From Closterium sp. NIES-65 (Eukaryota; Streptophyta; Zygnematophyceae; Desmidiales; Closteriaceae): a stretch of DNA of 64,000 bases. Shown piece by piece: positions 4,440 to 59,620 of the stretch. The stretch lies in assembly GCA_948144175.1 (NCBI GenBank), contig CANXME010002654.1, forward strand, positions 1-64,000, written 5' to 3'. The translations under genes and the position numbers were made by a program. The notes under the pieces are model-generated. The model ran no database searches, was not told the DNA's origin, and saw nothing but the letters and a program-made list of their open reading frames with translations. How positions within the stretch are numbered: position 1 is the stretch's first letter; each line of letters opens with the position of its first letter.

Positions 4440-4625
4440 GTGCACACACGGTGTGAGTGTGGAAGCTAACACCCCAGGCAAGTGCATGCATGGCATGGCA
4501 CGCAGTGTGGAAGCTAACACCCCAAGCTAACACCCCAGGCAGGTGGGTCCACGCTCTAGCTGTAGAGACCTACGGCTACCCGTTGCCTGGGGTGTTAGCT
4601 TACCTTACAGTTGTGTAGCTTACCT
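4440..4625. other. Short unassigned segment with repeated gtgtggaagctaacacccca
   Basis: The phrase gtgtggaagctaacacccca occurs twice (near 4,456 and 4,505), with partial copies after it. No coding feature is recognised. Confidence 0.5.
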
Positions 4626-4690
4626 CAGCAGTGTGTATCACCGTGTGTGCATCACCGTGTGTGCATCACCGTGCGTGCATCATCGTGCGT
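4625..4690. repeat. Five copies of a 14-bp minisatellite, left edge of Gypsy-A
   Basis: Units of gtgtgcatcaccgt end directly at the first repeat block of Gypsy-A. The same unit forms the large array that begins right after the element at 12,678. This suggests the element was inserted into, or carries, this array. Confidence 0.7.
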
Positions 4691-4871
4691 GCTCTCGGAA
4701 ATCTCTTGGCTCCCCTGCCTCTCTGTTACCCACTCTGCCATGCTCGTCTTGCTCTGTTGCTCTGCAGTGCTCCTGTCTGTTCTGGACACGGTGCTTGATG
4801 CTTTCTCTGCCCCTCTTCTGGCTCATGCTTGCCTTGCCTCCTTGTTCGGGGCTCTGCTTGATCCAGCATGG

Positions 4872-5516
4872 CATCCAGAAAACCTCACTAACCCATCTAG
4901 GCCGACTAGCTGGCTCCTGCTATTCTTGATTCTACCCGTGTTGGTTTAAAAGGATTACATTGAGAAAAAGCAGGAAACATACAACGAAGCACCTAGCACT
5001 AGGGCTCAGTAGCTCTATGTACAAGATGAGATTGACTGCCCTAGCCTAGTGCTTCAGCGGAAAGGGACAGACAGAGATCATGCGTGAGCGAGGCTCGGGC
5101 TTCCCGAGTCGTATGTACAAGCCGCTGGCGGTTTGGGGCTGCATGTGGTTTGGCACCAGAAACTGTGCCAGCTGCCCGGTTTTCTCGCATGTGCACTTGC
5201 AGCCCTCGCCACTGTCGGCCGTGCTGCTCGTATCCTCGTTAGCAGCGCTCGCCCTGCCACAGCACAGAATAGCATTCATACAAAGAAAACACGCAAACCC
5301 CCCCCCAAAACCCTCTCCCGACATTCACTTGCTCAAGGCTCGTCCTCGCTATGGTACAAAAATATGTACACCGCAGCCCGTTCGTGTGCTGCTCCTTGTT
5401 CCGCTTACACTTGCCCCAATGAAACCCATCTCACTGATTTGTCATGCACACGCCTTATGCCACAGCTGCTGTCTCGGCATAATGTTGCCCTCCATGGTCT
5501 ACATAATACCGCCGAC
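4872..5516 (-). repeat. Gypsy-A terminal repeat block Y, left copy
   Basis: It begins cagaaaacctcactaaccc and ends near ctacataatacc. It is nearly identical to 12,031-12,677. Together with block X it probably forms the 3' LTR of Gypsy-A. The precise LTR ends are uncertain because X and the 14-bp array lie differently at the two ends. Confidence 0.75.
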
Positions 5517-5519
5517 AGC

Positions 5520-5698
5520 TGTCGGAAATCTCTTGCTCCCCCTGCCTCTCTGTTACCCACTCTGCCATGCTCATCTTGCTCTGTTGCTCATGCATGCTCC
5601 TGTCTGTTCTGGACACGGTGCCTGATGCTTTCTCTGCCCCTCTTCTGGCTCATGCTTGCCTTGCCTCCTTGTTCGGGCTCTGCTTGATCCAGCATGGC
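5520..5698 (-). repeat. Block X, second copy, adjoining the Gypsy-A coding region
   Basis: About 180 bp from tcggaaatctcttg to gatccagcatggc; it repeats 4,690-4,868. Read on the minus strand it starts with TG directly after a purine-rich tract, as the start of a 3' LTR would. Confidence 0.65.
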
Positions 5699-5724: not shown

Positions 5725-7000
5725 CTACGGCTCCTGCATGCCCAGCTCCAGACTTCCGAGCTCCTGGTGCGAGCTCGGGCGGTGTTCGTGGCATGATCCC
5801 TGACACCGTCGCCCTTGCTGATTCTCCAGCACTACGACTCCAGACTCCTTGGCTTCCACCACCTTCCACCGTTCTTCGCTCAGACCGCGGTCCAGGACAG
5901 TCTGCCGCGCCGTGCGATGATACACCTCTTGCCCCTGCTGCAACTGCTCTACCCCCGGGCGTGCGTTGTCCCCCAACCGCTCCTGGTACCTGTGTGCATC
6001 GCGCAGCTGTGCCACGTGGAGATTTTCCATGGCCGATGGCAGGAGTGCCCGCAGATAGTCCCCTCGCACCTTCGCCAGAGCGGCCCACAGCTCGGGTGCA
6101 CCTGCTGTCACGACGTCAGTGAGCACCCTTGGAGCTCCCACTGGCAGTATGGGCTCCCGCCCATACAACAGGTAATAGGGGGAGGCGTCTCGTAGTGCCG
6201 CTTGCTTGCTGAAACGGTACCCAGCCGCCACCCAGTGCAGATCCTCGTCCCATGTGCGCCGGTGGGGCCTCCCCATATGCCCTCAGGCCGCGCTTGAGGG
6301 TCTGCACCATCCGTTTGGTGAGCCCGTCAGCCTGAGGATGGTAAGCGGGAGGTCCTGCGATTCGTGATCCCAATTGCGGTCAAGGCTCTGTCGATTCTCC
6401 GCGGAACTCTGTGCCTTGATCGGTGAGCACCTCCCAACATGCTCCCATCCGAGTGAGGACCTGCTCTGTGAACGCCTCTGTCACCAGGGCCGCGCTCTTA
6501 CTGCTGAGGGCCCGTACCTCCACCCACTTGCTGACGTGCTCGATCATTACCAGTATGTACTTCTTGCCACGGCGGCTCAAGGGTAGCTCCCCCGCCATGT
6601 CGAGGGACCATCTGTATCCTAGTCCGCGGATGGGTAGGGATTGCAGCTGCTGCTGGCTGCGCTCCAGCTTGGGCTCGGTTGCGGTCACAAGCCTCACACT
6701 GCCCCACATGCTCCCGAATCTTGCCGCGCCATGCCTGCCCACCACCACCCTGTGTTGACCAGCTGGGTAGTCCTGATATGCCCGAAGTGGCCCAACTGCT
6801 GATGCACCTCGGCGAATGATGCCCTCAGCGCTCTGCTGGCGGCGGAACTAGCTTCCATCCCTCCCTCGTTCTCAGCTGGACCTGCCCCGCGTACCACCTG
6901 TAGTGCTGCCCTTCGTGCTCGTGCTCTTTCTGAGGCTGGTTCTTCCGCTTTGGTCTCCCCTCTGAGCCACCTGAGCGTCTCCTCGTCCAGCCAGATGTCT
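5725..7000 (-). mobile_element. Gypsy-A integrase region
   Basis: Minus-strand segments give, in order, a zinc-binding-like stretch (VHQQLGHFGHIRTTQLV), the catalytic core start (YRWSLDMAGELPLSRRGKKY), DQGTEF, and YHPQADGLTKRMVQTLKRGL. A C-terminal part follows with YYLLYGREPILP and WKVVEAKESGVVVLENQ. These are the usual landmarks of a Gypsy integrase, which would join element DNA to the host chromosome. The region is broken in places. Confidence 0.8.
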
Positions 7001-7049
7001 GGCGCCCCCCGCTGCTCCTCCTGGCGCTCCCCTTGCCTCTCTGCCTCTC

Positions 7050-7560
7050 TCGTCAACGCCACCAGGCTCGCCACCGGCTCTGCGGGTGGAGGGTTGCGAG
7101 ACAGCCCGTCGACGTGCTGCAGCGTACGGCCTGGCCTCTGTTTGACCACGAAGTCGGACTCCTGGAGCCTCATTGCCCATCGTGCATTCCGCCCGGTCAG
7201 GGTGTGGTTGGTCATGAGCCATAGAAGTGGCTGGTGGTCAGTAACCAGTGTGAACTCGCGTCCTTGCAGGTAGGACTCGGAAATGCGTCACTACCCACAC
7301 CGCCCGCTAGCCCCTCGCCTTTGTAAGAGCTGTAGTTTGCTTCTGCCGCGTTGCAGCTGCGGCTGGCGAACGCCACCACCCTTTCTCCTTCCTCCCTTGC
7401 TGGCAGAGCACTGCCCCCATGCCTGCGCTGCTCCAGTCCAAGTAGAGAGTGAACCTACCCTCTGGTTTCGGCAGCAGCAGCACAGGCCCTGACTTTACCG
7501 CGTCCAGCAGATCCTGTAATGCCCCTGCTCCGTTGCCCCCCATTTCCACGCCACATCTTC
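7050..7560 (-). mobile_element. Gypsy-A RNase H region
   Basis: The segment FTLYLDWSSAGMGAVLCQQG matches the start of Gypsy RNase H. Further on, TLTGRNARWAMRLQESDF and TLQHVDGLSRNPP match its C-terminal part, which leads to the integrase. It lies directly after the reverse transcriptase, as expected. Confidence 0.75.
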
Positions 7561-7810
7561 CCTTAGAGCTGATTAAAGCTGGCGGCCCGCTTGCTGAAGT
7601 TGGGCACGAATTTGCGGTAGTAGTTCAGAAAAGCCCAGGATGGCCCTGAGCGCCGTCCGGGCTCTCGGGCACCGCCAGCTTGTCTAGCACTGCCACCTTC
7701 GCCTGCTGGATCGTCATCTGCCCTCTGCACACCTCAAACCCGAGGTATTGCACCGTCAGTGTCCCGAACCTGCACTTTTTGGGGTGGCAGGTTAGTCCCT
7801 GCTGCTTTGA

Positions 7811-8420
7811 TCACCTCAGCACCTGCCCGACGTCCTTTACGTGCTCCTCCGCGGATGAGCTGTACACCACCACGTCATCGATATAACAGGCTGCGCAGTG
7901 CTGCAAATTCCTCAGCACCCGGTCCATGGCTTTCTCGAAGACTGCAGAGGCGTTCTTCAGGCCGAATGGCATGAAGAGCCATTCGTACAACCCATCTGGC
8001 CCGTGGAATGCGGTTTCCTTCACGTCAGCCTCCGCAATGCGTATCTGGTTAAAAGCCCTGTCGAAGATCTAGCGTGCTGAACACCAGTGCCCCCTGCAGC
8101 TTGTCAAAGATTTCTTCTGGCGTCGGCATGGGTAGCGGTTGGCCACGGTCGGTTTGTTGAGGTCTCGATAGTCTCCACACATCCGGCGCGACAGGATTCC
8201 TCCGGTGAGCTCCTTCCTTGCCGCCACCACGGTTGCGGTTGCGTACTCTCACTCTGAGGGCCTGATGAGGCCCGCCTCCAGTAGCTCACGGCACTTCTCC
8301 ATGCACACCTCCAAATCCCTCGGGCTCATCCTCGGCTTGCGCTGGTACACCGGTATCTCTTCCGTCAGCCTTATCTCCATCTCTCCTCCCTGTACTTGCC
8401 TAGCTCGAGTAGGGTGAAAG
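7811..8420 (-). mobile_element. Gypsy-A reverse transcriptase region
   Basis: Seen on the minus strand are DLEVCMEKCRELLEAGLIRPS, FSTLDLRQGF, EWLFMPFGLKNASAVFEKAM and the catalytic-box segment ACYIDDVVVYS. These are the standard blocks of a Gypsy reverse transcriptase in the right order. The region is a broken fossil. Confidence 0.85.
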
Positions 8421-8717
8421 CAAATGCCTGTCTGTTTTCTTTCAGTATCACCCTCATCTGCTCCTTCAGCTCCCCCGTGAGGCCTTCGTCCACCTCCCAG
8501 TGTACCTCTTGCTCCATCTGCCGCTCTCTCGGTGCTTCGGCTGGGATAGGGTTGTGCTCTGGTCCCCGCGCTATTTCCTTCCTGGCCGCTTCGGATGTCT
8601 CAGCCTGCGCCCTCCTGGTTGCTCCCTCCGCCGCTGGTTTCTTCTCCTGCCGTTCCTTGCTGCATCTCTTCTTCTGGTGGTTCGATCCAGCTTTCTCCTG
8701 CGAGGGCTCCTCCGCTG

Positions 8718-9943
8718 CTAGCCGCGTCTGCTGCGAGGGCTCCTCTGCTGTGGCCGCTCCATCTGAAGTTCCGACAGGATCTGCTCTGCCCTGCGCTGGC
8801 TGGCACCCACCTTCTCCTCTGTGTCACCCCCTGTGCCACCCACTTCTGCCTCCATTTCCAACTGCTTGGATGCCAAATGCATCTGAATCACATGCACCAG
8901 CCAGTGCATTGCCTCCGCATCCATTGCCCTCCCCAGGGCTTCACGCCTCGGCGTCTCTCCCACCTCTGCGGTTGCTGTTGCGTCCGGGAGAAAGCCCATC
9001 GCCAGCTCACGTTCCCTTACCGTCGGCTCCTCCCATAGATCCTTCATGCGGTCATACACCATCCCGGGCCCTGGCAGACCCTCGCTCCAGATGAATCCAT
9101 GTGCCTCTGGGCGTGCCACCAACGTAGGCCACGCTTCTCGAGGTAGCCCTGGCTCGTTACACTGGAACTGACTGGGGTGGTCCGGCTTGAGCACGGGGGC
9201 TGCCAGGCGGTGAGGTTCCAGGATGTCTTCCAGCGGGCGCGGCGCTGGCCTCTCAATTTGTATGAGCTCCCACCTCAGCTTTCCTTCCGACACCCCGTTT
9301 TGCCAATAGCGTCTCACTCGGTGTGAGTAAGATTTTTGCTGGACCGCGTCCCATGCCACCCCTGGCCCCAGTGCAGCTGCCACCACATCCTGCATGCGTC
9401 GCACTGGCTCCCTGCAGTCCGTGGAGAAGTCGGGATTCTCTAGGATGTACAGGTACTCTCCGTGCTGCTGATAGACCAGCTTCATCACCCACAGCAGCTC
9501 CAAAAACAAGGTTGACCTGGGGTCATCCAGCCCCTTGCCCTTTCCGGCTCTCGAGACCCCTTGGCATTCCCACTCGGCCACCAGAAGGTCTACTGTCCCC
9601 CATCGCTTCACATCCTCCGGAGCCACCTCCCTGATGTCGTGTGTCATATCTTCCTCAGCTTCCGCCTCCACTCCTGCCATCATTTGCGTGGGGTAGATTC
9701 CTCTCAGCCTCTTCGCGTGGTGCATGGCCATGCGCCTCACCACTGGGTCGAGTCCACGAGCACCCATTTCTTCACTCTGCACCCTGCCTTGAGCGCCGCC
9801 GCCAGTCCGGTACCGACGCCTCGGAACAATTCCACAATGGTTAGGGGCTTCTGTAGCCTCTCCAGATCCGTCATCCGTGGAGGCAGAGCGAGGGGCCTCT
9901 CTGCATTCTCTGCCTCTGCCCTTCGAGTCTCCTGCTCCAGCAC
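8718..9943 (-). mobile_element. Cytosine-5 DNA methyltransferase-like domain inside Gypsy-A
   Basis: This lies between the protease and the reverse transcriptase of Gypsy-A. An S-adenosylmethionine-binding motif I is recognisable in TIVELFRGVGTGLAAALKAG (about 9,780-9,845). A 354-codon open stretch (8,718-9,782) then gives a motif IV-like block, DLLVAEWECQGVSRAGKGKG followed by LDDPRS (residues 65-90). Next come a motif VI-like LEN (residues 114-116), a motif VIII-like SHRVRRYWQN (153-162), PTLVARPEAHGF (219-230) and RERELAMGF (256-264). This is the motif order of C5 methyltransferases. Such enzymes methylate cytosine in DNA; whether this copy ever did is not shown by sequence. Retrotransposon-borne methyltransferases are known from charophyte algae and dinoflagellates, which makes the reading plausible. 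Confidence 0.78.
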
Positions 9944-10057
9944 GTATTGCCTCCAGGACCAGTCCTCTAGTTGCTCGTCATCTCTGCCATGCGGGCTTGG
10001 AAGGCTCCTCGGGGCTCTCTTTTCACGAAGTGCACCGGCAGAGTACCCACCGGACCG

Positions 10058-10459
10058 TCATCTCGCCAGTACTGCGCACGGTATAGACACTTTCTCCTGC
10101 CAGGTGCAGATGGTGGCGCCGATACGGTACAGCAGCTCCATGCCGATGAGCAGATCGTAATCTTCTGAGGGCGAGATCCCGCAGCGCATCCGGATTCGGC
10201 ATTCGTCTTTCGATCCTGGCCGAAGGATCACTTCCACCGGCATGCGCGTGCACGGCATCCATTTCGGCTCTCCGCCTTCTGCCGTCATTACCAGTATGCC
10301 TCTCGTTATGAGCCTGTTCGGATGATCCAGCTCGAGCCTTTTGGCCAGGTCTTTCCCAAGCAGGATATGGTTTGCTCCGGTGTCGATGATGGCTTGCGCC
10401 ACAGCTAGCTCGCCCACCGTGATGCTCCCTTCTCTATGGTCAGTACCGACGGCTGACAA
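10058..10459 (-). mobile_element. Gypsy-A aspartic protease region
   Basis: The minus-strand frame contains AQAIIDTGANHILLGKDLAK, with the D-T-G active-site triad, and later DYDLLIGMELL, which matches the second conserved block of retropepsins. It sits between the zinc-knuckle gag and the methyltransferase-like domain. Its role would be cleavage of the element polyprotein. Confidence 0.8.
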
Positions 10460-11990
10460 ACCATCCTTTCCTTTGGGTGTCGTTCAGACGTCATCTCCTG
10501 CTCTGGTTCTGCCGCGTAACCCCGGAACCTTCTTATGACTCGGTCTGGCCGATCTGCGCGTCCCTGCCCATCGCTGCGGAGCCGGATCTCCTCCCTCTGT
10601 CGCGGTGCTTGCACCATCAGCACGAACTCGGCTTCGCTCCCTTCTCCCTCTTCTTCCTTCGCGAGCATAGCCGGCTCTCTCCGTGCACCGCCCTCCAGCT
10701 CTCGAATCCTTACCTGTAGCTGCTGAAGCGGATTCTCCAGAACTTCCTTGCTCCTCGGTCCTGCCGAGCCGGGCCGGCGACTGTAGCAATCCTGTGTGCG
10801 ATGCCCGCGTCTCCCGCGGTTCCCGCAGCTAGGGATTTCGGGGCAGTCTCGGCGGAGGTGTCCCTCCTCTTGGCAGTGATCGCACTTCGGTGGCCTGCTG
10901 GAGTCCCTCTGCAGATGCCCCTCCTGGCCACACCGGTGACACTTGCGCGTCTCGGTCTCGGCGCCCCCGTCCTCCTGCCGGGAATTTCCCCCGTTGAAAC
11001 GGCCGACCACGCGGGCCTGCGCCGCTCCTCCGGTTGCATCCCTCCCCTCTCCATTTCGTACAGCCGCAGACCCATCTCTTGCTTCTTGGCCAGCTCGTAC
11101 GCGTGTTCCAGTGTGGCCGCCGGTCCCATCTCGAAGACTCTCCCTCGTACTTCACTTGCCACCCTTTCGTCCAAGCTGTTTAGGAATTTCGTCACGAGCC
11201 TCCATTCGTCGCGACACTCCATGTCTGAGGCTAGCTCCCGCAGTCGGCCATAGGTTGCCAGCAAGGACTCTCCAGGCTTCTTCCGAAATTATGCGAACTC
11301 TTTCATCCGCTCAGGTGTCTGCACTGGGAAGTGTCGGCAAAGCGTCGCGAAGAACTGCGTCACCACTTCCCACGTGACCCCAGCTGCCGATTCGCTGAGC
11401 ATGCGCTCCAATTCCATGCCGTACGCCGTCTCCTCCGCTTCTCCCGTGACCGTGTTTGAAAGTCCTCAGAAAAAGTCTTCGGGCTCCAGCCCATCCTTCA
11501 TCCAGCGGTATTGCGCGTTGCGGATCTGCATCATGCAGTTCTTAAGGCTGCTTCCCACGCCCGGAGTGCCTGCAAACCGTTCCGGCACCTCGATCTTTGG
11601 CAGCGCCGCATACCGCACAGGCGGGCGCATGACCTCGGTGTTGTGATGTTCTGACAGGGAGAATCTCCTGGTCTGTCGGAGCAGCTCGCCTTCCGCACTC
11701 GTGCCTTGTGCGGCATCTCCGCTCCGCGGCGGCTCAACGGTCTCACCCACTTCTGCGAGGGGTCTACCGGACGAGCTGTGAAAGGCGTCAAGCCCCCCGG
11801 TCGGCAGGTCACTCATGCTGTGCCTCCGATGCGGCGCCGTGTACGCTTCTCTCGTCGGCGCGCCTCCAGATCCTCCTGCTTGCGTGCCGACGGTCTCTCC
11901 CACCGCGTCTCCTGCTCGCCATCCTGGAGTCGCCATCACCGGCGGATCCGGAGGCAATTCGTATCATCTTCCAGAGCGTAGCTGCATTCA
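10405..11990 (-). mobile_element. Gypsy-A gag region with zinc knuckles
   Basis: The capsid-like part includes WRLVTKFLNSLDERVASEV (about 11,150-11,220), typical of the retrotransposon gag domain. It is followed near 10,790-10,950 by zinc-knuckle segments CHRCGQEGHLQRD and CDHCQEEGHLRRDC, plus a further knuckle-like stretch. These would bind element RNA. The region is broken in places. Confidence 0.8.
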
Positions 11991-12030
11991 CCGATGCGTC
12001 CTATCTTGTGGTGAGATTTCCTTCGTCGTA

Positions 12031-12677
12031 TGTCAGAAAACCTCACTAACCCATCTAGGCCGACTAGCTGGCTCCTGGTATTCTTGATTCTACCCGTGTT
12101 GGTTTAAAAGGTTTACATTGAGAAAAAGCAGGAAACATACGACGAAGCACCTAGCACTAGGGCTCAGTAGCTCTATGTACAAGATGAGATTGACTGCCCT
12201 AGCCTAGTGCTTCAGCGGAAAGGACAGACAGAGATCATGCGTGAGCGAGGCTCGGGCTTCCCGAGTCGTATGTACAAGCCGCTGGCGGTTTGGGGCTGCA
12301 TGTGGTTTGGCACCAGAAACTGTGCCAGCTGCCCGGTTGTCTCGCATGTGCACTTGCAGCCCTCGCCACCTGTCGGCCGTGCTGCTCGTATCCTCGTTAG
12401 CAGCGCTCCGCCCTGCCACAGCACAGAACAGCATTCATACAAAGAAAACACGCAAAACCCCCCCCCAAAACCCTCTCCCGACATTCACTTGCTCAAGGCT
12501 CGTCCTCGCTATGGTACAAAATATGTACACCGCAGCCCGTTCGTCTGCTGCTCCTTGTTCCGCTTACACTTGCCCCAATGAAACTCATCTCACTGATTTG
12601 TCATGCACACGCCTTATGCCACAGCTGCTGTCTCGGCATAATGTTGCCCTCCATAGTCTACATAATACCACGACAGT
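12031..12677 (-). repeat. Gypsy-A terminal repeat block Y, right copy (5' LTR side)
   Basis: Nearly identical to 4,872-5,516. On the minus strand it lies upstream of gag. The 14-bp minisatellite starts immediately beyond its right end, where block X would be expected if the two LTRs were alike. Confidence 0.75.
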
Positions 12678-13835
12678 GCATCTCCGTGCGTGCATCCCCG
12701 TGCGTGCATCCCCGTGGGTGCATCCCCGTGCGTGCATCACCGTGTGTGCATCACCGTTTGTCCATCACCGTGTGTGCATCCCCGTGTGTGCATCACCGTG
12801 TGTGCATCCCCGTGTGTGCATCCCCGTGTGTGCATCACCGTGTGTGCATCACCGTGTGTGCATCACCGTGTATGCATCACCGTGTGTGCATCACTGTTTG
12901 TGCATAACCGTGTGTGCATCACCGTGTGTGCATCACCATGTGTGCATCACCGTGTGTGCATCCCCGTGTGTGCATCCCCGTGTGTGCATCACCGTGTGTG
13001 CATCCCCGTGTGTGCATCACCGTGTGTGCATCCCAGTGTGTGCATCACCGTGTGTGCACCCCCGTGTGTGCACCCCCGTGTGTGCACCCCCGTGTGTGCA
13101 CCCCCGTGTGTGCACGCCCGTGTGCGCATCCCCGTGTGCGCATCCCCGTGTGCGCATCCCCGTGTGCGCATCCCCGTGTGCGCATCCCCGTGTGCGCATC
13201 CCCGTGTGCGCATCCCCGTGTGCGCATCCCCGTGTGTGCATCCCCGTGTGTGCATCCCCGTGTGTGCATCCCCGTGTGTGCATCCCCGTGTGTGCATCAC
13301 CGTGTGTTTCATCACCGTGTGTGCATCCGTGTGTGCATCAGTGTGTGCATCCGTGTGTGCATCCCCGTGTGTGCATCCCCGTGTGTGCATCACCGTGTGT
13401 GCATCACCGTGTGTGCATCAACGTGTGTGCATCACCGTGTGTGCATCACCGTGTGTGCATCACTGTGTGTGCATCACCGTGTGTGCATCACCGTGTGTGC
13501 ATCACCGTGTGTGCATCACCGTGTGTGCATCATCGTGTGTGCATCATCCGTGTGTGCATCACCGTGTGTGCATCCCCGTGTGTGCATCACCGTGTGTGCA
13601 TCACCGTGTGTGCATCCCGTGTGTGCATCCCGTGTGTGCATCCCGGGTGTGCATCACCGTGTGTGCATCCCCGTGTGTGCATCACCGTGTGTGCATCCCC
13701 GTATGTGCATCCCCGTGTGTGCATCACCGTGTGTGCATCACAGTGTGTGCATCACCGTGTGTGCATCACCATGTGTGCATCCCCGTGTGTGCATCACCGT
13801 GTGTGCATCACCATGTGTGCATGCGTTTATATCAA
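12678..13835. repeat. 14-bp minisatellite, about 80 copies
   Basis: Units are gtgtgcatcaccgt or gtgtgcatccccgt, with a block of gtgcgcatccccgt variants at 13,120-13,235. The 14-bp period opens all three plus-strand frames, giving Cys/Val/His-rich translations that I regard as artefacts. It lies just upstream of the first recognisable TBC exon, so it may be intronic. Confidence 0.93.
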
Positions 13836-38289: not shown

Positions 38290-40482
38290 CTACTCATACT
38301 CGTCCTCCAAGATGTCGTCGTCATCCTCCTCCTCCTCCTCTTCCTCCTCCTCCTCCTCCTCCTCCTCCTCCTCCTCCTCCTCCTCCTCCTCCTCCTCCTC
38401 CTCCTCCTCCTCCTCCTCCTCTTCCTCCTCATCCAGCACATTGTAACCTTCGAGGATGGGGGGCTTCGGCTCATTCCCACACACATCCTTGCGCGTGTGC
38501 CAGTTGTGCACAACGTTCCAGTTGTGCGCAACAAACACCAAATCCGCACACTTGGCGGACCCTAAGCGGTTCCTGTGGGCAGTGTGGACTGAGTCCCACG
38601 ATGCCCAGCCACGCTCACAGGGTGAAGCCAAGATGGGCTATGAGAGAGAATCCGGATGGTGAGGGACGCAATGCGGGGGGCATCTGTCCCGTTCCATTGC
38701 CACCGCTTCACCATGCTGTAAGTGCCCGCCTTCACCTTCTCCCTTTGTGTCACAGCCTCCGCCATCCCGAAACTCCCCTTCATGTCCAAGATATCCCTCA
38801 GCCCGTCCCCCAACTTAACCAAGTAATCACAGGCCCCATCCCTCCCCTTCCCGTCGTGGCCAACGAGAAACTGCGCATGCTGGTGAAGGAACGCTTTGAA
38901 GACGTGCGTGCATTCGGCGTCGCTTCCAAAGATGTCTTCTTCCTAGTTCGCGGGGTTGAGGATGGCGTGCATGGCCTGCCACATGCATGGCGCACGCGAG
39001 GCTCCCGTCCCACCAGTTTTTAGGATGCGGCGGATCTGTTGCTTCTCGCTATAGCACAACTGCTTCTCATCGGCATCCACGAGAGCCCCAACGTCCTCTG
39101 TGCGTTGGAGCATCACGTCGTAGATCCTGCCCATCATCCCTTTTGCCTCCCCGTCCGTCTTGCACATCGCCTCGAAAGGGAGCTCCAGCAGCTTGGTGAA
39201 AAACTCGGCTGTTTTCCACCAAGTCGAGTCGAGTACCAATGCGGCAAACTTCTCTGCAGCCACCTTGCGCGAGCGAGCAGCCCACTCCTTCCACTCGTTG
39301 CCGAGGACCATCTGCGTGAGGGTGGAGCTGAGCTGAGAGAGACGGGAGATAGCGATGTATTGGGTCCCAAAGCGGGTCCCCGCGGGTGCGGCTGCAACAC
39401 CTTCCCCTCCACCAACTTCGGGTTCTGCAAATAACCGCGCGTCCAATGATGGTTGTGGGTGAATGTACTTATCTCCGCACCACAGTCAACCACCTTTTTC
39501 GCCCACCCCATTTTCCCCACGTCCTCCATCATCAGGTCCATGACGTGGGTGGCATAAGGAACCTGCTGAATGTGGGGCCACATCTCAATCAGCTTCTGGC
39601 ACACCGATGCGTAGTTAAAATCCCCATCCATATAGAGCGCAACGATGTTCACAGGTCCCACTTTCTCCACGACGGGTTTCAGTAACCACGCGACATATCC
39701 CCCTATCTTCTCCATGTTGTAGTCCACACACTCCTTCAGGACGGCGCAAGCGTCATTCACGAGGAGGACATTTGCCTGCGGCCTGCCACACTTGTCCGTC
39801 ATCATGTCGGACGCGATGGTAACACCCGTCTTCTTCCAGCTAGCCTTGATCCCCATCACGCCGTTCTCAGTACCCTTGCGGCAAGCGAGCAGTCCGGCCC
39901 CGCCGATGTACTTGCAATGTGGGGGAATGTAGCCGTGACCGCTGCGTGCAACCAGGTGCATAGAGTTGACGAAGAGCAGATGGTCGATGAGGTTCTCTAG
40001 GAGGCGAAATGCGGCAAACATGAGCGCAAGGCCTTTGTGTGCTTCACATTTTGCCACAGCAGCGTCGCCCTCAAGGTACTCGGTCATGCGGGCCCGTTTG
40101 CCACCAGCTTTGACCGACTCTATAGCAGCCAACACCGCGCTCTCTTTCTCTTCTGTCGCAGCAGCTTGTCCCTCGTACATCTTGCGCATCGCAAGGCAAA
40201 CATCAACAGGTGCCTTTTTGCAGAGCGTCACCTCGCGGCGCTTCATCTTCTTCCATGATCTTAGGTGTTGAGCGCATCCGATGGCGGCACCTAAAAGACA
40301 CTGAAGCAGTACTTGCACTCGTACTGTTGTGCCTTGCCCTCTTCGCGCTTGATGAGACTGAAGTGCTTAAAGACGTCGTGGACTAGATCAGGAAGGTACT
40401 CCCTTGTCCCTTGTGGACGAACCATAGAACTCTCCACTGACTGAACGGAAGGCAGGGTGAGAGGCGGACTACTTGATGCCAT
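38290..40482 (-). pseudogene. hAT-2 transposase (BED finger, DUF659-like core, hAT dimerisation domain), broken
   Basis: From ATG at 40,482 (MASSSPPLTLPSVQSV), a BED-type finger follows: VFKHFSLIKREEG, YECKYC, then CAQHLRSWKK. A long middle part (39,134-40,318) has VTIASDMMTDKCGRPQANVL and IVALYMDGDFNYASVCQKLI, matching the DUF659 region of hAT transposases. Then come AAEKFAALVLDSTWWKTAEF (about 39,200-39,270) and the dimerisation segment SPCERGWASWDSVHTAHRNR (38,565-38,625). The tail is poly-Glu, from the (tcc)n tract, ending DDDDILEDEYE. The frame changes near 40,300, near 39,385 and near 38,620, and a stop lies at 38,943. Some of these could be unrecognised introns, but most likely the copy is inactive. 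A complete transposase would cut and paste the element. Confidence 0.8.
38308..38432. repeat. (TCC)n microsatellite inside hAT-2
   Basis: About 38 trinucleotides with a few ttc interruptions. It encodes the poly-Glu tail of the hAT-2 transposase on the minus strand. Confidence 0.95.
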
Positions 40483-42984: not shown

Positions 42985-44110
42985 CTATACGAGAACCGGT
43001 GGTGGTGGCGGTATCTGCCGTCCCTGGAACTGTTGGTTGGGGTCATTGTATGGCTTCAGTAGCCGTACATGGAAAGCGTTGTGAAGCTTCCATGTATCTG
43101 GTAAGCGCAAGCGGAATGTAACTGGTGTCACCTGTGCCTCGACAAGAAAAGGACCACAGAAGCGAGGCCGGAGTTTGGATGGGAGGTGAGACGGGTTCAA
43201 GTTGCACGTGTCAAGAAGCACCTGATCTCCGACTGCTACTGAGTGATCACGTCGCTGACGATCGGCATACTGCTTCTGGGAGGTCTGCATCATGGTGAGT
43301 CGTCGCTGAGTCTTCTCCCATAGCTGCTGCATGGTCGTGACGACGTCATGTGCGGCTTGGACGTGTGGCGGTGTGGTTGGCTGCTGTGGTGTGAGTGGTT
43401 CCCGTCCGTAACACAGGAAGAAAGGAGTTTTCCCTGTGGCCGCATGTGATGCGTTGTTGTAAGTGAAATCTAGGGTCGGTAACTGTGTGTCCCAGTGGCT
43501 GACGTCGTCCTTGCAAGCTGTGCGCAGCAACTGTTCAACCACTTGATTGAGTCGCTCTGTCTGTCCGTCAGTCTGGAGGTGGTATGCTGAAGACATTGCA
43601 AGCTTTGTCCCCAACAGTCCCATGAGCTCCTTCTAGAACTTACTGGTGAATTTTGGGTCTCTGTGTGAGATGAGTGTAGCGGGGATGCCGTGGATGGTGA
43701 TGATGCAGTCGAAGAAGAGGCGAGCAGTTGCTTCAGCTGTAGCTGTGGCGTTGGTCGGTATGAAGTGACCCATTTTGGAGAACTTATCGATGACTACAAG
43801 GATGGAATCATGTCCCCGTGAGGTCGAAGGAAGTCCTGTGATGAAGTCGAGGCTAACGACCTGCCATGGCTGCTCTGGTACGGGTAGAGGCTAAAGTAAC
43901 CCTGCTTTTTTCTGCTTGCTGCTCTTCATCCGCTGGCACGTGTCGCAAGAGGTGACGAACTGCTGCACGTCTACTGCCATCCCGGGCCAGTAGTAATACT
44001 TCGCTATCTCTACTAACGTCTTGTTGCTCCCGAAATGTCCCGCATAAGGTACGTCGTGAAACTCCTCCAATAGGATCTGCCGTAGCGGGGCGTAATTCGG
44101 TACCCAAATC
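42985..44110 (-). mobile_element. Gypsy-B integrase region
   Basis: The minus strand gives AMSSAYHLQTDGQTERLNQV, the C-terminal half of the catalytic core. THAATGKTPFF-like sequence, LCYGREPLTPQQ and VGDQVLLDTCNLNPSHLPSK follow, then the GPY/F-type RPRFCGPFLVEAQVTPVTFRL. The upstream zinc-binding part lies near 43,950-44,110. No chromodomain is evident beyond DTWKLHNAFHVRLLKPY, which is the usual integrase end. Confidence 0.85.
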
Positions 44111-44115
44111 TTTCC

Positions 44116-44706
44116 TCAACCCTTCCTTACAGCTAAGTCTTTCTCCCACTGTAACAGCTTCCTGGTCTGTGCTGTAGCAATCTGTGCGTCCACGGAGTAC
44201 CCATGTTGGAAGAGAACCTTGAGCAGAGGGTTCATCCCATCGAGCTGGATGCCTGCTACATGTCCGGGGCGGCTCAACGCGTCTGCCTTGTTGTGTAGCC
44301 CGGGCTTGTAGACGATGTCGTAGTGGAAGTGAGTTTCGAGGAAGTCCACCCACCGCACCTGTCGTCGTGAGAGCGTCGGCTGCGACTTCAGGTATTTGAG
44401 ACTGCAGTGGTCAGTATAGACTGTAGTCTTCGCTCCCTCTAGGTAACACCTCCACGCCTTGAAGGCTATGACTATCGCTAAGGCTTCCTTGTCATGGATG
44501 GGGTAGTTCAGTTCTGCTCCGTGTAGCTTCTTACTGAGGTAGGCGATGGGCTGCAAACCGCGTCCGTGATCCTGCATCAGTACTGCTCCGACTGCTTGGT
44601 CACTAGTGTCTGCTTCCACCACGTAGTCTTTGTCTGGATCCGGCAAGATGAGTACTGGCGCTGTAGTCAGTGCTGTTCCATGGCTTGCTGATGAGGGGTA
44701 TCCCAT
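44116..44706 (-). mobile_element. Gypsy-B RNase H region
   Basis: This 196-codon frame includes APVLILPDPDKDYVVEADTS, AVGAVLMQDHG, LSKKLHGAELNYPIHDKEAL and the typical end FLETHFHYDIVYKPG then HNKADALSRPG. These are standard Gypsy RNase H blocks. Confidence 0.88.
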
Positions 44707-46412
44707 TTGTAGGGCGTATCCTTTTTCAGTAGGTCGGTTAGTGGCGCTGCTATCTTAGCGTACTGCGGCACGAACCTGTTGTAGTAGTTGGCGAAGCCTA
44801 GGAACTGCTGCAACTCCTTCACGTTCTCCGGTACTTTCCACTTCTTGACGGCTTTGATCTTCCGCGGGTCCACGTGTACGCCCTCGGCACTCACCATGTG
44901 CCCTAGAAAGTGCACCTTCTTCAGGGCGAAGTCGCTCTTCGACAGCTTCACGTAGAACTTGTTTTTCCGCAGGATCTCGAACACCTTCCGCAGATGCTCC
45001 ATGTGCTCCTTCATGTTCTTGGAGTAGATGAGAATGTCGTCCAGGTACACCATCACGCACTCGTCCAGCAGGGGTCGTAAGATGTGATTCATCTCCGCCT
45101 GAAACGTTGCTGGTGCGTTGCAGAGTCCGAACGGCATCACCAGGTATTCGTAGGAGCCGTATCTAGTACGGAATGCCGTCTTGTGGATCGAGTTGTCCGC
45201 CATCTTGATCTGCCTGTAACCCGACCGTAGGTCCAACTTCGAAAAGACTGTTGCACCACGCAGTTGGTCCAGTAGGTCATCTATGCGCGGTACAGGGTAT
45301 TTGTTTTTAACTATCTGTTTGTTCAGTGCACGGTAGTCGATGCACATCCGTAGACTGCCGTCTGGTTTTGGAGTGAAGAGGACTTGTGCACCGTAGGGAG
45401 AGGTGGATGGGCGGATCTGTTGTCGGTCCAGTAGATATTCTATCTGTTTCTTCATGTCTGTCAGTTCAGTCGGACTTAGTCGGTATGGTGCACGTGAGAC
45501 GGGTTTCGCACCTGGTTCCTCCACGATCTCGTGCTCGTGGGTGCGTGCTGGAGGTACGCCTGTAGGTAGGTCGTCGGGCATTATATCCTTGTACTGCTCC
45601 AAGACCTCCTTCACTGCTGCAGGTAGCTCCGAACTCGGCTTCTCCTCCTCTGCTGCTGCCATAACCAATGCTAAGTATCCTGTGTTACTCTCGTTCACAG
45701 TCCGTTCGAACCGTGCCAGTGTCGTTTCAGGAATGTTCCCTGTATCCGTCCAGCTTCGCAGCTCCACCCATTTCCCGTTGTTGTAGATGCACGCCTTCCT
45801 GTTGACCCAGTCGATCTCGGGGTTGAACCGCTTCAAGAAATCTCGCCCCAAGATGAAATCTAAGCCCTTCATGTTCGTGATCAGCAACGTCGACTTCCAC
45901 CTCAGCGCCCCTATGTGCAGCTGCAGTGATGCTTCGCCGTGGATGGGAAGTTTCGTACCGTCCACCATTGTTGCCATGAACTTGGTCTCCTCCGAAGGTT
46001 CTCCAATTTTCTCCAACGTCCTGTGGTCGCACACCGAGTGAGACGCACCACTGTCCACCATTGCCTGAAGGCGTCGCCCATTGCAGATCACCTCGAGTAG
46101 TAGTGGTTTTTGCTGCTCCGAGTAACCGTAGATGGTCTCGCTTATAGGATCGTAGGGTACGTCAAATAGATCATCCCTCGGTCCTGCGCTCGAAGCTGCT
46201 GACTCCATATCAGTTTCCAACTGAGCAGGGTTAGAAGGATTTATCCGAGGCCGATTCAGCTTCGTCTTGGCTTGGAACCTTCCCTTAAGCCTTTGCAGTT
46301 GTGCAGGCTTCTCCTGTGTGCAATGGGGAGCCTTAACACTATGCTGCGGGGAGAGAATATGAACTCCTTGGAACGCACGACCCTTTTCAACGCTCCGGAG
46401 TGGTTTGCCCAA
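44667..46412 (-). mobile_element. Gypsy-B protease and reverse transcriptase, long open frame
   Basis: The frame has 581 codons. The protease segment has [17 protein letters not shown] and, later, [15 protein letters not shown]. Reverse transcriptase blocks follow: [55 protein letters not shown], the catalytic [14 protein letters not shown], and [20 protein letters not shown]. The order and spacing are those of a complete Gypsy reverse transcriptase. This is the best preserved coding stretch of any retroelement in the window. Confidence 0.92.
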
Positions 46413-46508
46413 ATTCTCAGGTACCTGAATAATGTCTTAAGGCTTTTTCTTGGCCTTGAAATCTCCCCTGAATTTTTAAAGGCTTGAAAACCTCGAGAGG
46501 AAATATTC

Positions 46509-47346
46509 TTACTCTCGGGGGTGTTCGGCTGGAGTTTCCCGGTCGGTGCAGAGTCTTGTTTCGCGGAGCCTCCATTTGTCTTGGCGATTTCCCCTGTTTG
46601 TCGCGCCATCATGCCCTCCTTTTTTCGCCATCGTGGATGTCGCACTGTTGTTGCCCTGCAGCTCTGCTAGTACCTTCTTCAACTTCCAACACGCCAAGAG
46701 TCGATGTCCTGCTGCGCCGCAAAATTCGCACTTCTCATATTTTGTCGGCCGCTGCTTCGCGTCGATCTTGTCGAGATCCATTGGGTCGGCGGTCGTGGGT
46801 GGTGCCGATCGCTTCGTGCCAAATGATTGGTTCGGCACGTGGCGTCGTGTCTCGGGCTCACATCGCATTAGCGCATCGAATCTCTCTGCTGCACGCACCA
46901 TGTCGCGATAGTTGTTGTAGTTCGCGGCAATCACCTGTTGGCAGACTTCCATCTTTAGCCCCTCAGTATACGCTTGGATTTTTTCCCCTTCGGTCATATC
47001 GGTAATTCGGTTGAAGAGGCTCTCCATCTGCTGCGTGTACTGTGTTACACTTTCGAACTGTTTATGCCGATGACTCTGCTGCCGCGCCATGTAGCTGGAG
47101 TTGATTGGTTCGAAACGCTGAATCAAAGCTTCCCAAAACTTCATCCATGACCCCTCGCCTCGGATCTCATTGTTGTTGTAAATCCACTCGAGCGCTGGGC
47201 CTCGTAACAGTGTCGCTGCGAGCCGAATCCGCATTGCATCATGTGTCGGGGTCGTACAGCCAACGGCCTTGAAGTAAATTTCGAGAGTCGCAATGAATCG
47301 ACGAACGTCAGTGTCTCTCGCATTCGGATTGAACGTCTCCGGTAGC
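46509..47346 (-). mobile_element. Gypsy-B gag region with a zinc knuckle
   Basis: The minus strand has the retrotransposon gag block ALEWIYNNNEIRGEGSWMKF, then RFEPINSSYMARQQ and TQYTQQMESLFNRI. A single CCHC knuckle follows (CEFCGAAGHRLLAC). The 5' side ends where the Copia-E LTR begins at 47,347. Confidence 0.85.
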
Positions 47347-47470
47347 TGTCAGATTTATATGACATAGCTGTTGTAGGCTATAGTGGGGTAGCACATATGG
47401 GGTACCAGTTTCTAGGGTTTGTACTTGTACCCAACTTTCCCTTAGTCAATTCATTCTCGTTCATTTTCTC
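47347..47470 (+). repeat. 5' LTR of Copia-E
   Basis: It shares ggctatagtggggtag and other words with the Copia-C LTR at 34,062. It begins TG and ends CA. The primer site follows at 47,471. Confidence 0.75.
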
Positions 47471-48531: not shown

Positions 48532-49860
48532 ATGCCTACCCCTAGTGTCCTCGATTTTGACGCTGAGGGTCGGGCCGTTGACTTTGACGTCTGGGTAGAT
48601 GACCTGCAGCTTTTCCTACAGTGCGATAGGGCAGACGGTCTCTCCCTCTTTGACCTCACTTCTGGTGCCTCTCCTTCCCCTGCTGCTGATGCTGACACCA
48701 CTGATCGCTCACAGTGGGCCACACGCGATGCTGCTGCACGTCTTGCTGTGCGTCGCCACCTGCCTACCTCTGAGCGTGCGCACTTTAGCCAGTAAAAGAG
48801 TGCTCAAACCTTGTACGACGCTGTAGTTGCGCGCTACTCCTCTCCTGCCACTGCTGCACTAAGCCGCCTCATGCTATCGTACCTCTTCCCTTACCTTGCT
48901 GCCTTTCCCACAGTCACTGACCTCATTACGCACCTCCGCACTAGTGACACTCGCTACCGCGCTGCGCTTCCTGCTGACTTCTGCACCAAGAACCCCCCCC
49001 CCCCATGTACATCACCCTCTACTACATAGTCACCCGGCTCCCTGACTCTCTCCGCGTAGTCAGGGACCACTTCCTCTCAGTTTGCCCCACCACTCTCACT
49101 GTTGACCTCCTCGAGAAGGCCCTCCTAGCGGCCGAGAAGAGCATAGTCGCTGTAGGAGCCTCTCGTGGTGACCCTCGCACCCCCGTCTTTGAGGGGTGTT
49201 CCCCCTCCCCCCTTTTGCCCTCTGTTGCCTCTGCTGCTGCGGCCGACCTCGTTGGTCTCCAGTCGATCGGCGCTGCGTCTGCCCCGAGCGGGAGACGCCG
49301 CACCGGCAAGGGCAAGGGGGGCAAGGGCGCTGGAGGGGCTGGCGGGGGCGGTGGAGGTGGCGGTGGCGGCAGTGGAGGGGGTGGGGGTGGTGGTGGGAGT
49401 GGTGGCGGGGGTGGAGGTGTTGGTGGCGGCAGTGGAGGCGGAGGCGGAGGCGGCGGTGGCGGTGGGGGCGGAGGTGGCGGAGGTGGCGGCGGAGGAGGAG
49501 GCGGCGGCGGAGGAGGCGGAGCTGGTCTGGGTGGCGCTGCGCAGAGGGTCGGCTCCGGTGGTGGTCAGCGCCAGCAGCAGCAGCGCACTCGTGACATCCC
49601 CCCCCCTCAGCAGCTCCGTGAGTGGTACGCTGCACGCCAGCGGGGTGGGGGTACTGGTCCGTGCACCTACGTCCTACGCACCGGCGACCGCGCGGGTGAG
49701 CAACGCGGGGGTGCGCACTCCACCCAGCGCTGCTTTGGCCGCCTGACGGACGCTTGGCGTCACCAGTTCCCTGAGGCCACTGAGATCCCTCGCTGGGGCG
49801 AGCTATCTAGGGCGGGAGAAGCTATCTTTGACCTTGACTTTGACGCTATTCTTGCTGCCA
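48532..49860 (+). mobile_element. Copia-E gag region with a Gly-rich linker
   Basis: It begins MPTPSVLDFDAEGRAVDFDV. It shows the same UBN2-type blocks as Copia-C (WVDDLQLFLQCDRADGLSLF; LPDSLRVVRDHFLSVCPTTL), a Gly tract at 49,335-49,530, and the segment QQLREWYAARQRGGGTGPCT that leads into the Cys/His region. Confidence 0.82.
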
Positions 49861-51430
49861 TGTATACTGTGACTATTAGTGATGAGGGTGACTATTACCG
49901 GTGTTTTCCGCCCGACCCGGGCATTGAGACTGCTGCTCTAGGTACTGGTGAGGCTGCTGCTCTAGGTGCTAGCGAGGCTGTTGCTCTAGGTGCCAGAGCG
50001 TCTGCTTCCTCGGGTGCTGGTGAGGCTGCTCTCTCAGGTAACGCGTCGGCTTCGGCCTCCCACACCTTCACCCTTGACTCGGGGGCTTCTCGCTCCTTCT
50101 TTCGAGACCGCACCACACTCACGCCGCTTGGTCGGCCAGATGCAGTCTCTCTGGCAGACCCCTCTGGGGGTCCTGTCCTTGCTCACTTCTCCACTGTCCT
50201 CCCGTGTCCGGCGGCCCCCTCTGGCACCCTGTCTGGTCCTTACCTCCCCTCGTTCTCTACAAACATGGTGAGTGGTGCTGACCTACAGGATGCGGGGGTT
50301 CACCAGTTCACTCCTGCGAGTCAGCGGGTGACCCACTGCACGGACGCTCGGACAGGCCGACACCTGGCCACGTTTACACGTCGGCCGGGGTCGAGCATGT
50401 ACACACTGACCGCTGAGTCTCCTCCTGTCCCTGCGTCTAGTCAGGTAGCTGCGTCGGGTCAGGTGTTTGCTGCAGCGTCCAGGTCTGGTCCTGAGTCTGC
50501 CCCCTGCTCGTGTCGCCTCCTGTCTCACGAGACTCTCCTCTGGCACCACCGCCTTGGTCACCCCTCCCTGCTTCGTCTCCGAGGCATGGCCTCTCGTGTC
50601 CTTGTCTATGGTCTTCCCCGGTCCCTCCCTCCCCTTACCCCGGGGCCTGCCCCTTCCTGCGTCCCCTGCGTCGAGGGGCGGCAGCGTGCTGCCCCTCACT
50701 CCTCCCAGTTTCCTCCGACAGAGGCCCCACATGGACGTGTGGGGCCCAGCCCGCATCTGTGGACAGAGTCACGAGCGCTACTTCGTGCTGGTGGTTGACG
50801 ACTACTCGCGTTACACCACAGTCTTCCCCTTGCGCAGCAAGGGTGATGTCACTGAGGTGTTGATCGACTGGATCCGCGCAGCTCGTCTCCAGCTCAGGCG
50901 GCGCTTCGGCTCAGACTTTCCTGTTCTGCGTCTGCCCTCTCACAGAGGCGGAGAGTTCTCCTATTGCCTTCTGCGAGCCTAGTGTCGTGCACGAGGCATC
51001 CGCCGGACCTTCACGCTTCCGGACTCTCCACAGCAAAATGGGATAGCTGAGCGCCGCATTGGCATGGTCATGGACGTCGCCCGTACGTCCATGATGCATG
51101 CGGCTGCCCCCCATTTTCTGTGGCCGTTTGCGGTTCGGTACGCGGCGCATCAGATCAACCTTCAGCCCAGGGTCTCCATGCCGGAGACCTCCCCAGCTTT
51201 GCTGTGGACCGGGAAGGTTGGCAATGCGTCTGCGTTCTGTGTCTGGGGATCTCGGGCGTTTGTCCACGACTTGTCTGCGGACAAGCTGTCCCCTCGTGCT
51301 ACTCCTTGCGTCTTCCCTGGCTTCCCCCCTGATGCGCCTGGGTGGCAGTTCTACCGCCCCACCTCTCGCCGTGTTCAGTCCTCCCAGGATGTCACGTTTG
51401 ACAAGTCGGTCCCCTACTACCGCCTCTTCC
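49860..51430 (+). mobile_element. Copia-E protease, pre-integrase and integrase regions
   Basis: The protease segment HTFTLDSGASRSFFRD lies at about 50,062-50,110. The GAG-pre-integrase segment ETLLWHHRLGHPSLLRLRGM lies at about 50,530-50,590. Integrase blocks are RYFVLVVDDYSRYTTVFPL (50,775-50,830), then SPQQNGIAERRIGMVMDVAR (51,025-51,085), HFLWPFAVRYAAHQINLQPR and the C-terminal FVHDLSADKLSPRATPCVFP. It is a fossil with breaks. Confidence 0.85.
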
Positions 51431-51529
51431 CCTACCGCACTCCGTCCCTCCCCCCGCCACCGCTCTTCCTTGTGCCAGGTCCCCCCCCGGTAGACCCCCT
51501 CCCCCCTCAGGGTCCTGCCCCTTCAGGTG

Positions 51530-52130
51530 TGTCCCACGTAGACGCAGTCGAGCCTGTCGAGGTTGCTGGTGACTCACGTGCTGTTGAGGGTGTTGAGCCT
51601 GGGGGTGCTGACTCTGGGGGTGCTGAGCGTGTGGGTGCTACGACTAGGGGTGCTGAGCCTGGGGGTGCTACGCCTGGAGGTGCTGAGCCTGGGGGTGCGG
51701 AGCCTGAAGGAGCTGGGCCTGCTCGTGTCGCGTCTGGCGGTACTGTGCCTGGAGGTTCTCCGGGTGCTTCGTCTCGGCGGGAGCCACTCTCTCCACAGGA
51801 GCTGCGCGAGTGGTTTGCCCAACGCTGGACGAGTGCTGCTGGAGCTGAAGGTTCTTTGGCTACTGAGGGTGCTCGTGTCGCGGGTCCCGAAGGTGCTCGT
51901 ACTGGGAGTACTGGAGCTGCTGGGCCTGCGGGTACGACTAGAGCTGGAGCTGCTGAGGGTGTTGGCGCTGAGGCTACTGCTGTCGGTCCTGGAGGCGGTC
52001 CTGCTGGGGGTGCTACTGGTGCTGCTGGAGGTCCTGGAGCTACTGGAGCTGCTGGGGGTGCTGGAGCTAGAGGTGCTACTGGCATTGGTGCTACCACTGG
52101 GGGTACTGGTGCTGTCCCTCCTGTGTCTGG
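51530..52130 (+). repeat. GAEPGG-type repeat in the Copia-E linker
   Basis: Repeats of 15, 18 and 27 bp encode GGAEPGGATPGGAEPGG and later GATGAAGGPGATGAAGG. The region joins integrase and reverse transcriptase. Copia-D and Copia-F have linkers of the same style. Confidence 0.75.
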
Positions 52131-52587
52131 AGTTGCCGCGTGGCCTCGGCCGTACTTCGTTCCGCTCCTTTAGCAGGTTCTTGGTCTTCCGCCTTCTACT
52201 GGTCCTCCTCCTCCCATAGAGTGTTCACAGCCTGTCCCGTCACAGTTACAGTTACAGCCAGCCTCCCCACTGCCTGCTCCTTCTCCCTACTGGTCCTACT
52301 GGAGGTCTTGCTGAGCGTCGTGAGCCTGCGTCTCGACGTGCGTCGCCTGTCCGTCCTGCTCGCACTAGTTGTCGTGGTTCGCGTCAGCGTCCTCCTCCTA
52401 TCCCTGGCACGCACCGGATGTCTCTGCGTCTGTCCACTGCTCCTCTGCGTGCCCCTTTGCCTTCTCCTCCTGAGTCCTCTCTTCCTCCTCTTGCCGACCC
52501 GGAGCCGGACTCTCTTCGTTCTGCCAGTCCTACTGTCACGCGTCTCCTTGCTACTGTCGTCACTGAACCTTCCTTTGAGTCCACGCT

Positions 52588-59311: not shown

Positions 59312-59620
59312 GTCGACTCCTCAGTAGCTGCCACCGCCAGGACAGCAGCAGCGGCAGGGACAGCAGCAGCAGCGACAGGGCCAGCATCAGCGCCCGCCAC
59401 AGCAACAGCCTCAGCAGTGGAGGTCTGCGGGTCCCCCGAGCACTGGGCGCAGTGGCGCCCCCTCCAGTCGGGGACCTTGCTCGTCCGGCCGTGACGTTGG
59501 TCCTTGTGAGTACTGGATCCTTACGGGTCCTCCTCAGGACTCGTACTGCAGCCGCCCCGACCACTCTGCTGCACGCTGCTTCAGTCGTCTCGACGACCTC
59601 TACCTCTTGCACCACGGCCC
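58320..59620 (+). mobile_element. Copia-F gag region
   Basis: It shows DHEGRPIDFSTWLTQAQCHL, ARDVWDSCDAAACLALTDLL, LYKAIVARYSTPSSASLSRL and HWLVTRLPDRLATARDAF, all typical UBN2-type gag. A shorter Gly-rich linker (59,145-59,225), a poly-Gln tract (59,280-59,315) and a Cys/His segment near 59,500-59,580 (CEYWILTGPPQDSYC, then HSAARC) follow. It is a different family from Copia-C and Copia-E. Confidence 0.82.

Follow-up and report, generated by a model that had tools for sequence, protein, structure and literature searches.

A Ty3/Gypsy family of Closterium sp. NIES-65 with a putative Dnmt3-like methyltransferase and a Glu-Cys motif IV

Cytosine methylation is a main weapon of hosts against retrotransposons, and elements that themselves bear a methyltransferase (MTase) under selection present a paradox. 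In the relevant passages of de Mendoza et al. (2018; PMC5890265), KnitGypsy-Dnmt3 of Klebsormidium nitens encodes a Dnmt3-related MTase within the Gypsy Pol frame. The element is described there as intronless, with a Ka/Ks below 0.2, conserved key residues and DIRS-like repeats, and as less abundant than its Symbiodinium counterparts. A test of the Klebsormidium Gypsy domain in yeast yielded no methylation, a result that the authors call inconclusive. The same passages report two DNMT-bearing retrotransposons of dinoflagellates, SymbioDIRS-Dnmt3 and SymbioLINE-Dnmt, which occur in hundreds of copies under purifying selection, and treat the capture of a DNMT by Gypsy as independent of the dinoflagellate cases (PMC5890265). 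The precedents in charophytes and dinoflagellates to which the original prediction for the present locus had referred are matched by these descriptions. De Mendoza et al. are cited by a 2025 paper (PMC12344493), in a passage that names LTR Copia and DIRS elements.

The window, i.e. the whole stretch of 64,000 nucleotides analysed here (Closterium sp. NIES-65, contig CANXME010002654.1), contains a Ty3/Gypsy element of 7.8 kb on the minus strand, which runs from 12,676 to 4,876. Its features, in the reading direction of the element and with an intact relative (L017) as reference, are as follows:

12,034–12,676, minus strand: 5′ LTR in the element's reading, paired with 4,876–5,518 (repeat families D10, D12, D13, D15 and D16)
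10,408–12,032, minus strand: gag region with CCHC zinc knuckles, broken by stops and a frame change (zf-CCHC, E 1.6e-8)
10,061–10,459, minus strand: aspartic protease with IIDTGANHILLG, the Asp of DTGA lying near 10,384 (Pfam)
9,740–9,943, minus strand: N-terminal MTase portion, which includes motif I (TIVELFRGVGTG) at about 9,841–9,806 (aligns to L017 residues 717–762)
8,718–9,782, minus strand: remainder of the MTase, motifs IV to X, in another frame (PF00145, phrog_116 and DNMT3B matches)
7,274–8,578, minus strand: stop-interrupted reverse transcriptase plus the larger part of RNase H, with YIDD near 7,885–7,874 (RVT_1, tblastn)
6,144–7,272, minus strand: RNase H end followed by the integrase region, spread over three frames (tblastn to L017 residues 1579–1952)
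4,876–5,518, minus strand: 3′ LTR, paired with 12,034–12,676 (repeat comparison within the window)

The two LTRs are 97.7% identical and differ by five transitions and four transversions (K2P 0.0142). A long array of a 14-bp tandem repeat adjoins the LTR at approximately 12,676–13,600. Outside the other LTR, a 160-bp stretch (4,691–4,850) repeats positions 5,518–5,677 of the element and is followed by a short piece of the same 14-bp repeat (4,617–4,706). No target-site duplication is readable from this arrangement.

Comparison with L017 by tblastn revealed stops in gag, reverse transcriptase and integrase accompanied by several frame changes. Four stops lie in the gag stretch from 12,032 to 10,971, beyond which another frame continues to 10,423, and five interrupt the reverse transcriptase/RNase H region aligned to L017 residues 1130–1578. 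Altogether, 11 stops were counted over non-overlapping aligned stretches, some of them perhaps read past a frame change. The window copy is a pseudogene with a frame break inside the MTase domain; with so many stops and frame changes in the copy, and with an open frame in its close relative L045, sequencing error is unnecessary as the cause of this break. The protease of the window reached 25.7 bits with gag-asp_proteas (E 1.8e-5; cut-off 28.2) and 24.7 bits with Asp_protease_2 (cut-off 24.3), while a 71-aa piece of the reverse transcriptase matched RVT_1 with an E-value of 2.6e-13. The L017 residues 1579–1952 span Integrase_H2C2 and rve by Pfam; from the integrase in the window itself, a single piece was run against Pfam (6,119–6,373) and gave no match.

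Other parts of the window harbor further elements. A second Gypsy element, Gypsy-B (43,318–47,348, minus strand), has a gag with Ty3_capsid and a shared frame for protease and reverse transcriptase, but lacks an MTase; its reverse transcriptase is only distantly related to that of the MTase-bearing element. Copia-like frames on the plus strand at 48,978–53,766 and 59,328–60,401 both contain gag_pre-integrs, the former also SH3_retrovirus and RVT_2. A DUF659 protein is encoded at 39,137–40,366 on the minus strand; DUF659 is frequently linked to hAT-type transposons.

The motifs quoted in the original prediction for 8,718–9,943 were all found in place on the minus strand. Motif IV reads EWECQGVSRAG (Cys at 9,566–9,564), motif VI ILENP (Glu at 9,440–9,438) and motif VIII SHRVRRYWQN (His at about 9,323); ERELAMGF starts at about 9,014, and a motif X-like ALGRAMD is also present. 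Motif I, TIVELFRGVGTG in the window, is LFGGIGTG or a near variant in most relatives. The prediction needs one qualification: in this broken copy motif I is separated by frame from motifs IV to X. The proposed homology to C5 MTases was confirmed by profile search: the 419-aa frame at 8,718–9,977 (minus strand) matched PF00145 with 26.4 bits (E 5.9e-6; curated cut-off 22). The same frame scored 27.3 bits with TIGR00675 (dcm), under the cut-off of 100.65, and matched phage DNA-methyltransferase families (phrog_116, E 7.5e-14; another, E 8.9e-10). The remainder of the MTase (8,718–9,782) matched DNMT3B with an E-value of 0.003, and the motif I piece alone (9,740–9,943) had no Pfam match at E ≤10.

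Of 901 candidates in the host genome (874 Mb, 2,400 contigs), 123 were scored as PF00145 matches. Forty of these 123 places were read; 39 belong to the MTase-Gypsy family and one (L037) is a CMT-like host gene. From the 123 matches, twenty 10-kb stretches were picked by hand with a preference for long open frames, and eight of them displayed a single frame of 1,924–2,321 aa, a proportion which is not a genome-wide rate. All eight frames exhibit the same order by Pfam, namely zf-CCHC, aspartic protease, MTase, reverse transcriptase, RNase H and integrase zinc domain. PF00145 exceeded 22 bits in each of them. The integrase core lies within the frame in seven; the frame of L020 stops before it. 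The protease was above the curated Pfam cut-off in three (L025, L027 and L028) and weaker in five. Paired LTRs and the succession of protease, reverse transcriptase, RNase H and integrase, with the integrase last, place the family among Ty3/Gypsy LTR elements. The predicted position of the MTase between protease and reverse transcriptase was borne out, but its assignment to a pol polyprotein was too narrow: since the gag zinc knuckle is included in the same long frame in the eight intact relatives, the domain is part of Gag-Pol there. Gypsy copies of the same domain order, which the original prediction had proposed to look for, exist in these eight frames and in an element on a metagenomic contig described below.

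The MTase domain of 336 aa could be aligned nearly without gaps over 16 copies from several subfamilies, which had been selected for an open frame, and all 16 matched PF00145 at E ≤0.01. This alignment and the consistent profile match show that the MTase of the window element is not there by chance. The MTase region of the window is 97.4% identical to its closest relatives L044 and L045, the latter with an open frame, and about 76% identical to L017. Several other fetched copies contain stops inside the domain. The first 80 of 500 reverse transcriptase-motif places were set against the first 100 places with the MTase motif. An MTase motif precedes 56 of these 80 on their own strand, at a distance of no more than 4 kb; at the other 24, the MTase may be absent or its motif changed.

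LTR pairs were detected in 15 of 21 elements including the window element, and no pair was found inside the stretch for the other six. The match in L011 proved to be a tandem array and L013 is a near copy of L012; without these two, direct LTR pairs were left in the window element and 12 others. Six LTR pairs differ by a K2P distance of 0.0018–0.0054, which indicates that the family was recently active.

Moreover, the MTase of the family is under purifying selection. The median dN/dS was 0.10 over 16 pairs without stops (dS 0.05–0.8), which share sequences, come from three subfamilies and are not independent of each other. Ten pairs including a stop-bearing copy gave a value of 0.08, indicating that the stops are recent. 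For the pair L016/L024, taken from a comparison set in which dS is saturated in most pairs, dN/dS was 0.11 for the MTase and 0.13 for the reverse transcriptase, i.e. the constraint is similar.

In a tree of 23 reverse transcriptases, the 18 that accompany an MTase (17 from the same genome and L054 from the metagenomic contig) formed one clade with support of 100/100. Outside this clade were Gypsy-B, three further frames of the same metagenome-assembled genome (MAG) and one sequence on the opposite strand of L021. Gypsy-B and the three MAG frames show no MTase between protease and reverse transcriptase in the frames seen. The tree suggests that the MTase was captured once in this Gypsy lineage, within a small comparison set that leaves out L013 and L016, lacks L014 (no reverse transcriptase match) and is compatible with losses inside the clade.

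A profile of the 16 copies was compared with solved structures to place the enzyme among C5 MTases. DNMT3A, DNMT3B and DNMT3C chains scored 62–48 bits, above all others, followed by 4onj (43) and 4onq (42), which are labeled 'DNA methyltransferase' and which we take to be DRM, by DRM2 and HhaI (35 each) and by DNMT2-type enzymes (at most 23 bits); no DNMT1 appeared in the list. The family shares motifs I, IV, VI and VIII with the catalytic domains of DNMT3A/3B, its best-scoring structures. Nevertheless, these are distant enzymes, which possess Pro in motif IV where the family has Glu. Together with the selection data, these matches make it very probable that the family encodes a Dnmt3-like MTase within a Gag-Pol that is maintained by selection. 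An MTase tree, too sparse and long-branched to place the family within DNMT3, grouped the copies from the same genome together, though weakly (65/84). DNMT3A, the only DNMT3 sequence included, and one phage sequence were on long branches, and the phage sequence L053 was drawn next to the family. A direct viral or bacterial source is rejected on present evidence: the phage matches were below 30% identity (20 listed of 301 records), a single viral contig match covered residues 98–153 only, and the only match among 84,980 prokaryotic genomes is itself located on a Gypsy element. Both collections were scanned with two short family peptide patterns as seeds, by which distant relatives could be missed.

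The prokaryotic match lies on contig CADCWO010000201.1 of the MAG Synechococcales AVDCRST_MAG81 (L054 and L068). This sister element has the same order of a gag-like part, protease, MTase, reverse transcriptase–RNase H and integrase. Its MTase is 42% identical to the family over residues 17–332, ranks DNMT3 chains first among solved structures when used alone, and shares with the family an insert of about 30 residues after motifs I–II that distinguishes both from DNMT3A and five phage enzymes. In contrast to the one long frame of the eight read copies, the sister element is spread over two frames. The gag-protease-MTase frame comprises 1,081 aa and is open at its start; the MTase reached 46 bits, the protease stayed under the Pfam cut-off and zinc knuckles were recognised by eye. 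The integrase frame (L068, 2–1,636) ends in a PHD finger (PF00628, 41 bits; cut-off 24), for which Pfam listed no match in the eight long frames from the genome of the window. A frame resembling the start of gag, judged by eye, follows the integrase. As the same bin contains other Gypsy frames, we consider the contig to be of probable eukaryotic origin and to have ended up in a cyanobacterial bin. The public MAG appears in this respect as a cyanobacterial bin with probable eukaryotic retrotransposon contigs.

The most unusual point of the element is the family-wide presence of Glu instead of Pro beside the catalytic Cys. A codon-level search for AGWxCQG sites identified 687 places in the genome, 645 with Glu, none with Pro and 42 with other residues; reversed-pattern controls returned 0 for Glu, 0 for Pro and 2 for any residue. 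The 645 are motif sites and not intact elements, and they represent a lower bound, as a DNA search can miss sites. Among the fetched family places, 38 of 39 have Glu-Cys, as does the window copy, and one (L040) has Gly-Cys. Pro is found at this position in the sister element (AGWPCQG), DNMT3A, the five phage enzymes and the CMT-like host gene (GGPPCQG). A change from Pro to Glu requires at least two base changes. The original prediction had correctly noted ECQGVSRAG as motif IV-like, but overlooked the replacement and its spread through the family. Thus, the family departs from the Pro-Cys of C5 DNA methyltransferases (PF00145), which belongs to the PCQ triad of motif IV according to the section of PMC6709928 on these motifs; the same section assigns catalytic roles to the motif IV Cys and the motif VI Glu.

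C109, E151, R193 and R194, which correspond to the catalytic Cys, the motif VI Glu and two Arg of motif VIII, do not vary among the 16 aligned copies. The Arg of motif VIII also has a recognised role throughout the C5 methyltransferase family. Conservation of these residues suggests that the enzyme remains functional, perhaps with a different substrate, rather than being dead, and we regard catalytic activity of the family MTase as probable. The family-wide loss of Pro, which could impair catalysis, speaks against activity, as do departures of some subfamilies in motif VI, with ENP in the clade of the window, ENL in L019, L025 and L047, and EHL in L027 and L028; ENV also occurs in the family. 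The negative yeast result for the Klebsormidium domain, which its authors call inconclusive, counts on the same side. It is conceivable, though rather doubtful, that a Dnmt3-type enzyme of the Gypsy lineage gained a rebuilt active site with Glu for Pro, and that this site was passed on through hundreds of copies while purifying selection acted, possibly with altered chemistry or with RNA or the RNA:DNA hybrid of reverse transcription as a new substrate. It would then be the first natural exception to Pro-Cys under selection that we know of. Queries of the open-access literature, which were not worded for this residue change, showed no report of a retroelement enzyme with Glu-Cys, a weak sign that none is in print.

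The best overall explanation, to which we assign a probability of about 0.5, is that the window element is a degenerate member of a large Ty3/Gypsy family that was active until recently, in which the MTase is part of Gag-Pol and would act in cis on the element. In intact copies, the MTase would most likely be packaged together with Gag-Pol. Its targets might then be the element's own new cDNA, its RNA or the RNA:DNA hybrid, modified prior to or during integration, and the methyl mark could alter the treatment of the new copy by the host, to the benefit of the element. Cis-methylation as the main role of the enzyme is the leading, still tentative, reading. The original prediction had suggested that the element may have methylated its own or host DNA; the window copy itself is unable to produce the domain. 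Self-methylation leaves no clear trace in base composition: the CpG observed/expected ratio of the element (0.77) is within the range of six other stretches of the window (0.40–0.90), and CpG depletion was discarded as a sign because it is not special to the element. C/T differences in the 13 LTR pairs, with the tandem array L011 and the near copy L013 dropped, amounted to 12/590 in CG, 23/815 in CHG and 22/2,528 in CHH contexts (chi-square p 1.3e-4). The excess in CG and CHG hints at methylation of the host type in these two contexts and is not attributable to the enzyme of the element.

According to a less probable explanation, the MTase is no longer a catalyst and serves as a module that binds nucleic acid or chromatin, or as an auxiliary factor through which host DNMT3-type enzymes are recruited or regulated, in the manner of mammalian DNMT3L. 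A DNA-binding module had also been put forward in the original prediction. The exchange of Pro for Glu at 645 of 687 sites and the ENP, ENL or EHL sequences at motif VI of some subfamilies speak for this explanation, and purifying selection would fit a binding role as well. However, a pure binding module is disfavoured by the retention of the catalytic Cys, the motif VI Glu and the two motif VIII Arg in all 16 copies. It is more doubtful still that an active enzyme has its main targets in trans, in host DNA, competing elements or algal DNA viruses. Passages of PMC6338049 and PMC5890265 propose that the DNA methylases of transposons affect viruses or the host genome, yet we found no sequence feature pointing to such targets, and fusion within Gag-Pol would favour action inside the particle. 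Finally, passive hitch-hiking of an MTase captured by chance, for which the broken window copy and the stops in several fetched domains could be adduced, is very improbable and already disfavoured by the low dN/dS, the same order in a diverged element from another source and the open domain in 16 copies of several subfamilies, albeit selected for openness.

On the host side, the CMT-like gene L037 was assigned to its family by reading of the letters. CMTs are plant-specific and first appear in charophytes according to the portion of PMC6453930 dealing with their distribution. The host genome also gave four AUX/IAA matches (best 40.7 bits). Twenty full-length matches to rbcL of the green type were distributed over nine contigs (C40, C75, C97, C162, C265, C824, C1848, C1961 and C2174) and frequently alternate in orientation, as though plastid DNA had been assembled in many copies. 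The green-type rbcL and the CMT-like gene are in keeping with a streptophyte host.

The family adds one genome to the cases of retrotransposon DNMTs known from Klebsormidium and dinoflagellates. At least 645 loop-motif sites, young members with long frames and a sister element with an ordinary site provide a natural contrast on the role of the enzyme and on the need for Pro-Cys. In comparison with SymbioDIRS-Dnmt3 and SymbioLINE-Dnmt, which are DIRS and LINE elements, the present family is Gypsy. Like KnitGypsy-Dnmt3, it encodes within the Gypsy Pol frame a Dnmt3-related MTase on which purifying selection acts. Compared with KnitGypsy-Dnmt3 on the basis of the published description, it differs in having plain paired LTRs instead of DIRS-like repeats and in the Glu-Cys motif IV at 645 sites, whereas the key residues of the Klebsormidium element are described as conserved. 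DNMT-carrying Gypsy elements are already known from Klebsormidium; what is new here is a family with the Glu-Cys variant.
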